Of a stretch of DNA of 64,000 nucleotides, positions 7,449-59,986 are shown in pieces. Where the stretch lies: assembly GCF_900162665.1 (NCBI RefSeq), contig NZ_LT727809.1:1-64000 (forward strand). The letters are read 5' to 3'. This stretch comes from Oceanobacillus sojae (GTDB lineage: Bacteria; Bacillota; Bacilli; Bacillales; Amphibacillaceae). Positions within the stretch are counted from its first letter, which is position 1; the number at the start of each line of letters is the position of its first letter. The position numbers were made by a program, and so were the translations under genes. The notes under the pieces are model-generated. The model did not search any database, had not been told where the DNA came from, and saw nothing but the letters and a program-made list of their open reading frames with translations.

Positions 7449-8357
7449 ATGTATTTATTGATTGTGAATCCGAATGCCGGAAATGGTCATGCCAAAAAGA
7501 TTTTTGAACGAATTCAAAAAATGACCAGCTATCAAAATATAGAGCGAAAAACATTATTTACAAATCAGCCGGGCGATGGCCGGATTATTGCCGAAACTTA
7601 TTCAAAAAATGAACATATAAAACAGGTTATTGTTATCGGTGGCGATGGAACGATGCATGAAGTAATGAATGGCTGGTCAAATCAGGCTGTGCCCATCTCA
7701 TTTATCCCGGGCGGCTCCGGGAACGATTTTGCTAAAGGAACAGGGCAACGGAATAATGCTGAAAAACAATGGCAGAATCTCATTTCAAACCCGGCTAAGC
7801 ATCATTTTTGGAACGGCTCATTTCAGCTGGAAAACGATCGAGAAAAAAAGTTTATAAACAGCCTGGGTATTGGAATTGATGCAGCTACAACAAAAATAGC
7901 GAATCACTCCCGTTTAAAGATTTGGCTTAATCATCTCAGATTAGGAAAGCTGATTTACCTCATTGCATTAATTCAAGCTATTTTGAGATTTCAACCAATG
8001 AATATCCATTTGACGTATGATGGAAGGACAAGACATATAGAAAATGCCTGGATGGTATCAGCGGCGAATCACCCCTACTGTGGAGGAGGATTAAAGGTAG
8101 TTCCTCATGCAACAGTTAACCCAAACCATCTTTCCGTATTGGTTATCCATCAGATTTCCAAAAAGAAAATCCTGTTGTTATTCCTGCTGGTTATCTTTGG
8201 GCTGCATCGATATTTAAAAGAAGTTGAATTATTTCAGGTAAAAGAAATGACAATGGAGGTTGAATCACCTGTCAGCTACCAGGCAGATGGGGAAACCGGC
8301 AGACTTCAGTATTGTTATGTAAAAAGAGATAAACAGACGGTACATATAAATAAATAG
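7449..8357 (+). CDS. ytlR: Diacylglycerol kinase-family lipid kinase (YtlR)
   Basis: This 302-residue protein has the diacylglycerol kinase catalytic domain: NPNAGNG at residues 7-13, the nucleotide-binding GGDGT at 64-68, and PGGSGNDFA at 87-95. The C-terminal half carries ANHPYCGGGLKV and the late acidic QADGE motif typical of YegS/DgkB-like kinases. The family phosphorylates diacylglycerol or related lipids at the membrane with ATP. YtlR of B. subtilis has no settled substrate. It follows ytlQ by 35 bases and is probably in the same unit. Confidence 0.85.
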   Translation: MYLLIVNPNAGNGHAKKIFERIQKMTSYQNIERKTLFTNQPGDGRIIAETYSKNEHIKQVIVIGGDGTMHEVMNGWSNQAVPISFIPGGSGNDFAKGTGQRNNAEKQWQNLISNPAKHHFWNGSFQLENDREKKFINSLGIGIDAATTKIANHSRLKIWLNHLRLGKLIYLIALIQAILRFQPMNIHLTYDGRTRHIENAWMVSAANHPYCGGGLKVVPHATVNPNHLSVLVIHQISKKKILLLFLLVIFGLHRYLKEVELFQVKEMTMEVESPVSYQADGETGRLQYCYVKRDKQTVHINK

Positions 8358-8804
8358 TAAGAAAAACAGATTGATTGAAGTTTCATTCTATTTTAATATA
8401 ATTGATAAATCATATAGATATTGTAATTTTGCTCATTTATAGATACAATAAAGACTTAACACGTTAAAAAGAATCATATTATTTATCGGAAATAGAGAAG
8501 GATTGCTTACCTTATCTGTATTCGTAAACAGATAAAAAAAAGAATGGTCTATTACATAAAGTGAAACTTCATTCAGTAGGGTTTGCAACACATAGAATGT
8601 TTCGGCAGGACTGGGACTTTCCAGCCGAAGAGCTTTTGCGGTTACCTGCCCCATTAGGGCCGTTACTGGCTGCCAGACGTCCACTTAAATAATGAATTAT
8701 TTTATTATTTCTTGAAGTGGGGGTCTTGCGGTCAGTTACACTGGGATAAATAAAGATTTTTCGGACGATCCTTGAATGCTAATTTTGAAAGATGGGAAGA
8801 CATT
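8358..8804. other. 447-bp spacer holding a structured GC-rich element
   Basis: The first 170 bases are ordinary AT-rich sequence with no gene. From about 8560 to 8740 the composition turns GC-rich and contains several hairpins, described in a separate entry. I see no convincing terminator for ytlR and no clear sigma-A promoter for ytmP. Confidence 0.5.
8560..8740. repeat. Structured GC-rich element, possible IS-derived end or ncRNA
   Basis: Inverted repeats are dense here: TTCGGC (8601-8606) with GCCGAA (8624-8629) enclosing a second small stem; CTGGC-T-GCCAG at 8666-8676; and CCACTTAAATAAT (8681-8693) with ATTATTTCTTGAAGTGG (8704-8720). The composition contrasts with the AT-rich flanks. A minus-strand open frame runs through it, but codon use and an absent ribosome site argue against a protein. 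The layout recalls the structured ends of IS200/IS605-type elements; no tnpA or tnpB is present, so this is only a hypothesis. Strand and exact limits are unknown. Confidence 0.35.
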
Positions 8805-9623
8805 ATGATTAACTGGCTCGAACATGCTTTAGGTACAGGGTGGCTTGTCAGACCGGCTGGTGGTTTAACCGGTGAGGCATTTATAGCTGAAAAAAATGGG
8901 AAGCGTTTGTTTCTGAAAAGAAACACATCGCCCTTCTTAGCGGTACTCTCTGCGGAAGGAATTGTACCAAAGCTTATTTGGACAAAGAGAATAGAAAATG
9001 GTGATGTTATTACCGCTCAAGAATGGCTGGAAGGGCGTTCTTTGAATGAAGAAGAAATGAAGCAGCAAGCTGTGGCTGATTTATTGTATAAAATACATCA
9101 TTCCTCTGAATTAATGCATATGCTTTTAAAAATGGGGAAAAAACCGACGACTTCAGATGAAAGTTTTGCAAAATTATGTTTGCAGTTAGAAGAAAATGGT
9201 TTAATACATGAGCATAAAGAGGTAAAGGAAGCAATTGGTTTATTAGAGATGATGCTTCCCTACACTAGAAATCAAAAGCTGGCAGTATGCCATTGTGATA
9301 TGAATCATAATAATTTAATCCTAACAAGAGAAAATATGATTTATTTAATTGATTGGGACAATGCAACCATTGCTGACCCAGCAACAGATATTGGTATGCT
9401 CTTAAAATGGTACATTCCCCGGGAAAACTGGGAAGAGTGGCTTATCAATTACGGCATAGAACCGGATAGACAATGGTTTATTCGCATGTACTGGTATCTG
9501 CTTCAGGATAATCTGCAATTCTTATGCTGGCATTTTGCACGTCAAGAAAATGGAAAGGTTCAGCAGAGATTAAAAGAACTACTGGAAATTAACTGGTCCA
9601 TTAAAGAGTTTATCGTATCATAA
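8805..9623 (+). CDS. ytmP: YtmP family phosphotransferase (choline/aminoglycoside kinase fold)
   Basis: This 272-residue protein has the protein-kinase-like APH fold: a Gly-rich stretch AGGLTGEAF at 18-26, an ATP-binding Lys in LFLKRN at 35-40, the catalytic loop HCDMNHNN at 163-170 (Asp165) and the metal-binding IDWD at 182-185. It is close in my memory to B. subtilis YtmP. I chose ATG 8805 because GGGAAG lies five to six bases upstream and family proteins begin with a short Trp-Leu segment here; a TTG-initiated form from 8772 is possible. The substrate is unknown. It faces ytzH tail to tail with only 19 bases between. Confidence 0.85.
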   Translation: MINWLEHALGTGWLVRPAGGLTGEAFIAEKNGKRLFLKRNTSPFLAVLSAEGIVPKLIWTKRIENGDVITAQEWLEGRSLNEEEMKQQAVADLLYKIHHSSELMHMLLKMGKKPTTSDESFAKLCLQLEENGLIHEHKEVKEAIGLLEMMLPYTRNQKLAVCHCDMNHNNLILTRENMIYLIDWDNATIADPATDIGMLLKWYIPRENWEEWLINYGIEPDRQWFIRMYWYLLQDNLQFLCWHFARQENGKVQQRLKELLEINWSIKEFIVS

Positions 9624-59659: not shown

Positions 59660-59986
59660 TATAGAGGATGTTCAAAAAGTCCAATAAAAATGACACGGCG
59701 ATAAGAGGATCTTCTACTAAAGGCGCCCACGTCGTGTGGGCAACGTAGAAGCCACCGCAACACGTGAGAAGTGCGTTGACGGGAGTTTTACAATGGGGCT
59801 GCGATTACTCGCCCCACCAAAAGCGTTACTCACGTATTTAAAAGCATAGAGAAACTTCTGTTAAGGCCGTCCACGTCCTGTGGACAACACAGAAGCCATC
59901 ACATCCTGTGAAAGTCCGTTAGTAAAACTCCCGTCGCCTTGAACTTCTTGGTCCTATTCATCGGCCTTTTTGAACACACACTTATA
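59660..59986. repeat. 327-bp MITE-like element with terminal inverted repeats
   Basis: The left end TATAGAGGATGTTCAAAAAG (59660-59679) is the inverse of the right end CTTTTTGAACACACACTTATA (about 59966-59986), with a few mismatches. Inside, two copies of a unit of about 70 bp begin at 59712 and 59855 (both contain CCACGTC-x-TGTGG and AGAAGCCA). GACGGGAGTTTTAC (59778-59791) and its exact inverse GTAAAACTCCCGTC (59922-59935) form a large stem. GGGGC...GCCCC gives a further hairpin. There is no coding capacity, so it would depend on a transposase elsewhere. Confidence 0.6.

Follow-up and report, generated by a model that had tools for sequence, protein, structure and literature searches.

A probable mobile hairpin element in Oceanobacillus sojae, its likely kinship with the bcr1 repeats and its possible movement as single-stranded DNA

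The described system that comes closest to the element considered here is bcr1, a repeat of 147-167 nt with a conserved fold (PMC2267715), a TTTAT motif and a high copy number, which is described as being restricted to the Bacillus cereus group (PMC6542083, PMC8725734). Its copies are located on chromosomes or plasmids (PMC6542083), are reported to be transcribed within UTRs (PMC3446304), and have been classed as MITEs (PMC3733652). In print, repeats of the bcr1 type are called MITE-like or site-specific, and the available passages of these papers offer no mechanism. A literature search, which for the most part stopped short of full texts and did not extend to older subscription papers, returned no publication on such a family outside the B. 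cereus group, on its empty sites or on its fork bias.

Elements of the IS200/IS605 family do not duplicate their target. IS608 and ISDra2 insert 3' of a short motif that is retained in the left flank, and they carry subterminal hairpins, have guide bases at the hairpin foot and make use of the lagging-strand template (PMC5934647, PMC6006769); the left guide of IS608 includes positions +17 and +18 (PMC5934647). REP/BIME sequences are intergenic palindromes whose hairpins have a short motif at their foot, and are thought to be processed in trans by the Y1 enzyme TnpAREP (RAYT) (PMC6006769). Finally, the PATEs of Haloquadratum are described as having near-terminal palindromes, no terminal inverted repeats, no target duplication and no transposase, and as occurring also in core-deleted versions of about 50 bp (PMC3119063).

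How does the spacer between ytlR and ytmP compare with these systems? Within the window, by which is meant the whole 64,000-nt stretch of Oceanobacillus sojae DNA that was analysed, the initial annotation had drawn attention to a GC-rich, hairpin-dense patch in this spacer. The patch is real. Scanning windows across 8350-8599 have a GC content of 0.18-0.32 and those across 8550-8699 one of 0.44-0.51, which stands out only against the AT-rich spacer; the flanking genes attain comparable GC. The features of the region are as follows.

7449-8357, plus strand: flanking gene (ytlR in the initial annotation), a lipid kinase of the DAGK/YegS type by profile matches
8421-8449, plus strand: promoter-like TTGTAA-17-TACAAT upstream of the element, found by a scan in which such sites are no commoner than chance
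8556-8745, plus strand: the entire inserted element as read here, its own ATAAA plus the body (covariance model R1 matches at C14:8644-8750; orthologous sites in G018, G014 and G008 are without the element)
8556-8560, plus strand: left-end ATAAA, element-borne, so that the opposite and presumed transposing strand has TTTAT at its 3' end (pentamer counts in 102 copies; empty sites of other copies)
8561-8581, plus strand: conserved left end GTGAAACTTC and the 5' arm of hairpin 1, the usual 3' arm being absent here (alignment A1 against A4)
8582-8650, plus strand: GC-rich, non-canonical middle, with the hairpin 8601-8610/8620-8629 and part of a second dispersed repeat, 8625-8654 (repeat searches, copy comparison)
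8651-8661, plus strand: remnant of the conserved inter-hairpin motif, CCAATCGGGCC (alignments A2 and A4)
8662-8739, plus strand: hairpin 2, with an internal loop between two stacked stems, where the family's TCTTAC is TCTTGC (repeats, fold, family covariation)
8746-8750, plus strand: target pentamer ATAAA, read as host DNA; element-free relatives have one copy, in a ATAAATAAAG-like sequence (orthologous sites)
8772-9623, plus strand: flanking gene (ytmP in the initial annotation), APH/choline-kinase-like, matching the NCBIfam CcrZ model below its cut-off (181.5 of 400 bits)

The extent originally marked, 8560-8740, does contain the patch, and the natural unit is slightly wider, at 8556-8745 plus the pentamer 8746-8750. 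At least four inverted repeats had been counted. Those at 8601-8629 (arms 8601-8610 and 8620-8629) and 8681-8720 are present, the latter enclosed by a larger repeat, 8662-8697/8704-8739, with 36-nt arms that are 72% complementary, and a further one was found at 8687-8696/8701-8710; CTGGCTGCCAG at 8666-8676 is in the sequence as well, but in the family fold it is only a piece of the 5' arm of the long hairpin. The 8662-8739 hairpin is hairpin 2 of the family and the 8601-8629 hairpin lies outside the family fold. As RNA, the plus strand of 8560-8740 folds at -64.9 kcal/mol (z -5.0, with 0 of 200 shuffles as good) and the minus strand more weakly (z -2.05, 6 of 200 shuffles); folded as DNA, 8556-8750 has z -4.9 on the plus and -3.1 on the minus strand. 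The open frame on the minus strand at 8433-8684, already noted to have no ribosome site, was rejected as a gene, since at E 0.001 neither Pfam nor NCBIfam has a family that it matches.

The likely reading of the feature is a non-autonomous mobile DNA element, present here as an old copy that has been rearranged internally: hairpin 1 is broken, and foreign GC-rich repeat sequence, of which 8625-8654 recurs in the same genome, stands in the middle. Being diverged and common to three close species, the copy is probably inert. To judge from its position between the promoter-like site at 8421-8449 and the 8772-9623 gene, it is probably transcribed as part of that gene's 5' leader. The DNA immediately 5' of the ytmP ATG (8772-8807 in the window; TTGAAYGCTAATTTTGAAAGATG-like) is kept in nearly all of 16 loci (L076-L091) and would be a regulatory leader or else contain a start codon further upstream. 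The second dispersed GC-rich repeat has modules like GCGATTACTCG(T/C)CCCAcCGAAGAGCTTTTGCG; besides being partly nested in the window element (8625-8654), it occurs at C17:390795, C14:647352, C16:231175, C15:697665 and C14:388536 of the same genome.

Searching related genomes, as the initial annotation had proposed, shows that the element is not single copy, for it is dispersed and present in many genomes. Within its own genome (4.80 Mb) a DNA search with 8540-8760 finds 44 places at E <= 1, most of them partial. The common architecture consists of ATAAA followed by GTGAAACTTC, hairpin 1, a variable middle, GAACCAATCGGGC, the long hairpin 2 and a terminal ...ACACTGCG, after which comes the flanking ATAAA. 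The family unit can be written as ATAAA, GTGAAACTTC, hairpin 1, GTTAGTTGAACCAATCGGGC, long hairpin 2 and an end that is mostly GCG or GGG, and it is non-coding and usually 156-161 bp in length. The covariance model R1, which covers the 3' half, has 11 matches at E <= 0.01 in the window's genome, and matches in 36 of 58 genomes, this one included, with up to 67 per genome. With the full-length model R2 the element is found in at least 47 of 398 genomes sampled across the class and in at least 27 of 145 genera, counts that are floors given the strict filters and the seven candidates scored per genome. The most seen in one genome is 100 matches at E <= 1e-6, in G195.

A 24-letter pattern for the left end matches at least 120 genome stretches. 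Among the matches listed, all are of Bacillales type by their titles except a Clostridiales MAG and a Modestobacter contig, and the hosts include Oceanobacillus, Lysinibacillus, Niallia, Cytobacillus, Virgibacillus, Sporosarcina and two filed as Paenibacillus species. The Modestobacter entry (L233) is a contig of 4.6 kb that carries a core-deleted element and is probably Bacillales contamination. A Pseudalkalibacillus plasmid bears two copies, and the plasmid search returned this host together with a weak Klebsiella match at E 0.1. The left end is also found in 28 viral stretches, of which 24 (within L304-L331) represent one site next to a prophage contig end; at this shared site the element is either intact or deleted to varying degree.

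The resemblance to bcr1 extends to a length of about 150 nt, a stem-loop fold, TTTAT, many intergenic copies, tens being reported for bcr1, and a MITE-like character, so far as the latter is described (PMC2267715, PMC6542083, PMC3446304, PMC8725734). The difference is one of hosts, since bcr1 is described from the B. cereus group only whereas the window copy and hundreds of others lie in other genera. One full copy on a prophage contig (L309) matches R1 with 45 bits (E 4.9e-8) and is presumably bcr1 itself, its contig identifier being of the kind used for B. cereus group genomes. No B. cereus group title appears among the at least 120 left-end stretches listed, and a plasmid search with the bcr1-like L309 as query found Pseudalkalibacillus alone and no B. 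cereus group plasmid; these absences weigh against identity with bcr1. Compared in this way with bcr1 as described, the family is probably its wider, pan-Bacilli relative.

Versions of about 50 bp that have lost the core recur (L187, L193, L213, L218, L228, L229, L233). In them the 5' arm of hairpin 1 runs directly, at GTGGGGG, into the 3' arm of hairpin 2, and they resemble terminal-only PATEs. With PATEs the element shares near-terminal palindromes, these core-deleted forms and the lack of a transposase, of terminal inverted repeats and of target duplication; it differs in that PATE palindromes resemble haloarchaeal IS605-type transposons, whereas no such parent element was found here. Other copies stand head to tail (L203 4296-4763, L217 5535-6001, L202 4077-4383 and L142) with one ATAAA-like pentamer common to adjacent units, as expected if the element's own ATAAA is used as a target. 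A tandem array at C18:1047439-1047772 of the window's genome (L008, L024, L025) repeats a unit of about 150 bp whose left end, ATAAAACGAAACTTCATTCAGTTGG, is related and whose interior is different.

What does the element do to its target? At the window site, G018, G014 and G008 have one ATAAATAAAG-like sequence with no element at that point, although at other points of this spacer G014 and G018 have element-like fragments; G019 and G025 have a diverged copy and G002 a 5'-truncated one. For other copies, empty sites were sought with the joined flanks of 13 copies with unusual right pentamers in seven close genomes, and 23 pairings were aligned from 30 loci. Exact empty sites with no duplication were found in 15 pairings of four copies, L141, L006, L158 and L132, although L158 and L141 lie in multi-copy sequence, so that some of their empty sites are paralogues. 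The targets of the four are AGAAA or AGGAA, the right pentamers being AGAAA for L006, AGGAA for L158 and AGAAA for L132, and ATAAA is present in no empty site of the 15 pairings. The clearest case is in G014, where ...GATGTCTTCAT[ATAAA-element-GCG]AGAAATGATT is matched in the same genome by ...GATGTCTTCAT joined directly to AGAAATGATT, with flanks that are 100% identical. The two G014 loci (C5:146.9-147.5k and C7:14.6-15.1k), one filled and one empty, reflect either a duplication followed very recently by the insertion or an assembly that mixes two strains, 6% contamination being listed for it.

The exact empty sites mean that the element brings its own ATAAA on one side, the other pentamer being untouched host DNA. 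Insertion has thus been shown to place ATAAA plus the body directly before an ATAAA-like pentamer, with the target not duplicated; as all these pentamers begin with the same A, the true position of the cut may be one base further in. The filled copies L012, L003 and L148 have a right pentamer that differs from that of their relatives and would equally fit duplication. In the five pairings of L012 the filled right pentamer is GTCAA, the empty L333 and L342 have ATAAA at the junction, and three are gapped or shifted. Of 82 copies chosen, 80 were fetched. Pentamers were counted in four genomes (100 of 112 loci searched, with 102 of 103 rows counted), where ATAAA is found on the left in 95 of 102 copies and on the right in 73 (p 7.7e-5); 28 copies deviate in the right pentamer only, 6 in the left only and 1 in both. 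Across genera the right end varies and the left end does not, and there is no common terminal inverted repeat.

Viewed on the minus strand the order is host TTTAT, then CGCAG, hairpin 2, hairpin 1, GTTTCAC and TTTAT, followed by host DNA. In this orientation the element is inserted 3' of TTTAT and ends in a TTTAT of its own, which is the geometry of IS200/IS605. The likeness includes insertion 3' of a short motif without duplication, hairpins at both ends, a preference for the lagging-strand template, and guide-like bases 5' of each hairpin, although their match to TTTAT is partial. On the minus strand, positions +17 to +21 counted from the cut read GTAAG, which is guide-like (a hand count on the A4 consensus), and the conserved minus-strand GTAAG(A) and CTAAC form Watson-Crick pairs with three of the five TTTAT bases (by hand; only TAA/TTA fully), the target being constant. 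Unlike the ends of IS608 as described, hairpin 2 closes at most about ten bases away from the cut site. Like REP/BIME sequences the element is palindromic, intergenic and marked by a short motif at the foot of the hairpin; it differs in having a unit of about 158 nt, compared with 21-65 nt, and in lying near only 1 of 60 Y1 loci (L522).

For an element that moves as IS200/IS605 does, the plus strand should run against the replication fork, a direction that was derived before the count and recorded only after it. With dnaA as the origin, the terminus placed opposite as an approximation and genes called by a simple ORF rule, the plus strand is against the fork in 105 copies out of 150 (p 1.1e-6; the 150 listed of 216 matches), which puts the presumed transposing strand in the lagging-strand template. 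Against and with the fork the counts are 54:26 in G195, 22:8 in G018, 15:6 in G002, 11:2 in G024 and 3:3 in G117, the contig extents of G195 and G117 being approximate. When clustered copies are removed, 75 of 105 remain against it (p 1.3e-5).

Gene context was taken for 112 of the 150 copies (48 of 80 from G195 and none of 6 from G117), of which 111 were classified. Between convergent or divergent genes 36 of 42 copies are against the fork (p 2.8e-6), and where both neighbours run with the fork 38 of 59 are still against it (p 0.036). Where both neighbours run against the fork, 7 of 10 copies do so too, in the same direction (p 0.34). The target pentamer shows no skew, with a fraction of 0.47 near elements compared with 0.53 over the fetched regions. 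The fork bias is therefore unexplained by neighbouring gene direction or target composition, and it could be partly a matter of selection. None of the 112 copies lies inside a predicted ORF; as the ORFs were called with the element in place an insertion-broken gene would not show, and L141 and L158 may be examples of this.

If the geometry is that of IS200/IS605, where is the enzyme? The initial annotation had suggested the right end of an insertion sequence whose RNA outlasts the transposase, and this part of the idea did not hold, as the family members are complete short units with both ends present, and only one of 60 Y1 loci lies near a copy and none looks built from its ends. The span from left to right end is 147-385 bp in 89 of 90 measured matches, the loci being picked by the left-end pattern and the 90th (1308) being an antisense echo. 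No measured copy holds tnpA because the span is too short, and an autonomous version with an ORF between the ends was found in none of the 90. The 7 of 80 copies that lack a left end have none within 3 kb upstream.

Y1_Tnp (PF01797) occurs in 47 of the 58 relatives, with no association between its presence and that of the element (29, 7, 18 and 4 of the 58 genomes; Fisher p 1) nor between their numbers (Spearman 0.035, p 0.79). A Y1_Tnp match at 1e-5 is absent from 7 of the 36 element-bearing genomes, including G002 (31 element matches), G024 (36) and G053 (24); in 18 further element-bearing genomes a match at 0.001 is present in 15 and absent in 3. The one Y1 locus of 60 with a copy within 1.5 kb, L522, is a RAYT-like gene in G349, and another, L367, has a single left-end match with two mismatches; neither neighbourhood is remarkable given the copy density. 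Four IS200/IS605 pairs that were compared have other ends, none of which finishes in TTTAT. Y1_Tnp as mobiliser was rejected, there being no association and no ends in common. As the Y1 genes show no association, the mobiliser cannot be assigned to Y1, and the search, which covered Y1_Tnp, found no enzyme that moves the element; it may have been lost, may be common to several genomes, or may belong to another kind. With neither tnpA nor tnpB, no room for them in the measured copies and no association with TnpA, the element works like a non-autonomous element of the IS200/IS605 type yet falls outside the family. The hairpins and the IS200/IS605 idea of the initial annotation were in this way partly right, in that mobile DNA, conserved hairpins, insertion geometry and fork-strand preference are all found, and the decayed right end with its RNA is not.

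A mechanism can be proposed along these lines. During lagging-strand synthesis the strand opposite the window's plus strand would be exposed as single-stranded DNA and would fold, as 5'-TTTAT/CGC...hairpin 2...hairpin 1...GTTTCAC-TTTAT-3'. An enzyme acting in trans would then cut 3' of TTTAT at both ends, as in IS200/IS605, and a single-stranded circle would be formed, to be reinserted 3' of another TTTAT-like site in a lagging-strand template. The corresponding general reading, which is put forward tentatively, is that the pan-Bacilli hairpin elements may follow the IS200/IS605 geometry and transpose on the lagging-strand template in single-stranded form, through an enzyme that is not a recognisable Y1 protein, possibly an unrecognised HUH nuclease or a host single-strand recombinase, and that bcr1 may be their local B. 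cereus branch. The empty sites, the carried TTTAT and the fork bias together provide a testable model of single-strand transposition for bcr1-type repeats, and the wide host range offers many non-pathogenic species in which to look for the enzyme. Were the enzyme new, it would stand for a further class of single-strand DNA transposition; were it a host protein, it would show a 158-bp hairpin persisting without a transposase of its own.

Several of these observations would also be accounted for by a tyrosine recombinase rather than an HUH enzyme, acting either on folded single-stranded DNA, in the manner of an integron cassette, or on a short core of 5 nt. When strands are exchanged at such a core, one end likewise receives the core carried by the element and the other end that of the target. 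Recombination at folded single-stranded sites is the behaviour of integrons, and if such sites recombined in the lagging-strand template the fork bias would be the same; the lack of association with Y1_Tnp also counts in favour of this explanation. The constancy of the left ATAAA, held in 95 of 102 copies, speaks against exchange at a duplex core, in which the pentamer would drift to the spelling of the last host. A recombinase of this sort is judged unlikely, and movement by an IS200/IS605-like route is preferred.

A good deal less probable than the recombinase is a family of structured RNAs, regulatory or small, whose spread would be incidental; this takes up the structured RNA of the initial annotation. 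In its favour are the strong plus-strand fold of the window copy, the probable position of that copy within a 5' leader and, for the published bcr1-3 copies, a description as often being parts of UTRs (PMC3446304), together with the conservation of single-stranded motifs and base-pair covariation. Covariance modelling of the matches had been suggested at the outset and does reveal such covariation, which also belongs to the case for the mobile DNA element. Alignment A4 joins 46 of 56 sequences with two copies of the window's genome, giving 48 full-length members that come from many genera. In it a 35-pair structure has 95.6% of its cells paired, and 17 of the 35 pairs have changed on both sides; its covariation scores 0.220, where shuffles average 0.088 (0 of 500) and slid structures reach at most 0.060. 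Conserved subterminal hairpins stand at both element ends, and GTGAAACTT, TTAGTTGAAC, AATCGGG and TCTTAC are invariant or nearly so. On a wider set 22 of the 25 pairs of R1 covary, in an alignment fitted to the model, so that the counts lean towards structure.

The question is then on which strand, and in which nucleic acid, the fold is kept. If a plus-strand RNA were selected, G-U wobbles should outnumber A-C mismatches, which are the wobbles of the other strand. The GC-type pairs of A4 have 21 plus-strand and 25 minus-strand wobbles, and all pairs 38 and 31, at low power; the wider, RNA-fitted A3 (96 of 149 loci, with four antisense rows and one partial row kept in the count) has 113 against 46, which becomes 61 against 41 without the weak outer helix. 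With no wobble excess in the GC-type pairs, the two-hairpin fold looks to be under selection as DNA, or on both strands. Nor is there a preference for the strand of neighbouring genes, as 28 of 111 copies share it with both neighbours, 42 with one and 41 with none. Rfam, at gathering and at permissive thresholds, gives only sub-threshold, chance-level matches at the window locus, and the spread of the family is explained by exact mobile insertion. The plus-strand RNA reading was rejected on the wobble counts of A3 and A4 and for want of an Rfam family.

A classical MITE moved by a DDE transposase, suggested by the placing of Bcr1 among MITEs (PMC3733652), by a compatible size and copy number and by a faint likeness between the right end of the window subfamily (reverse complement AGTGTAACTG) and the left end (AGTGAAACTT), is scarcely credible, as the informative empty sites, which are without target duplication, already contradict it and a left end that is constant and a right end that varies across genera leave no common terminal inverted repeat. 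Among the RNA features of the window are a 5S rRNA at 1-116 and two Bacillaceae-1 RNAs at 59701-59768 and 59845-59912.
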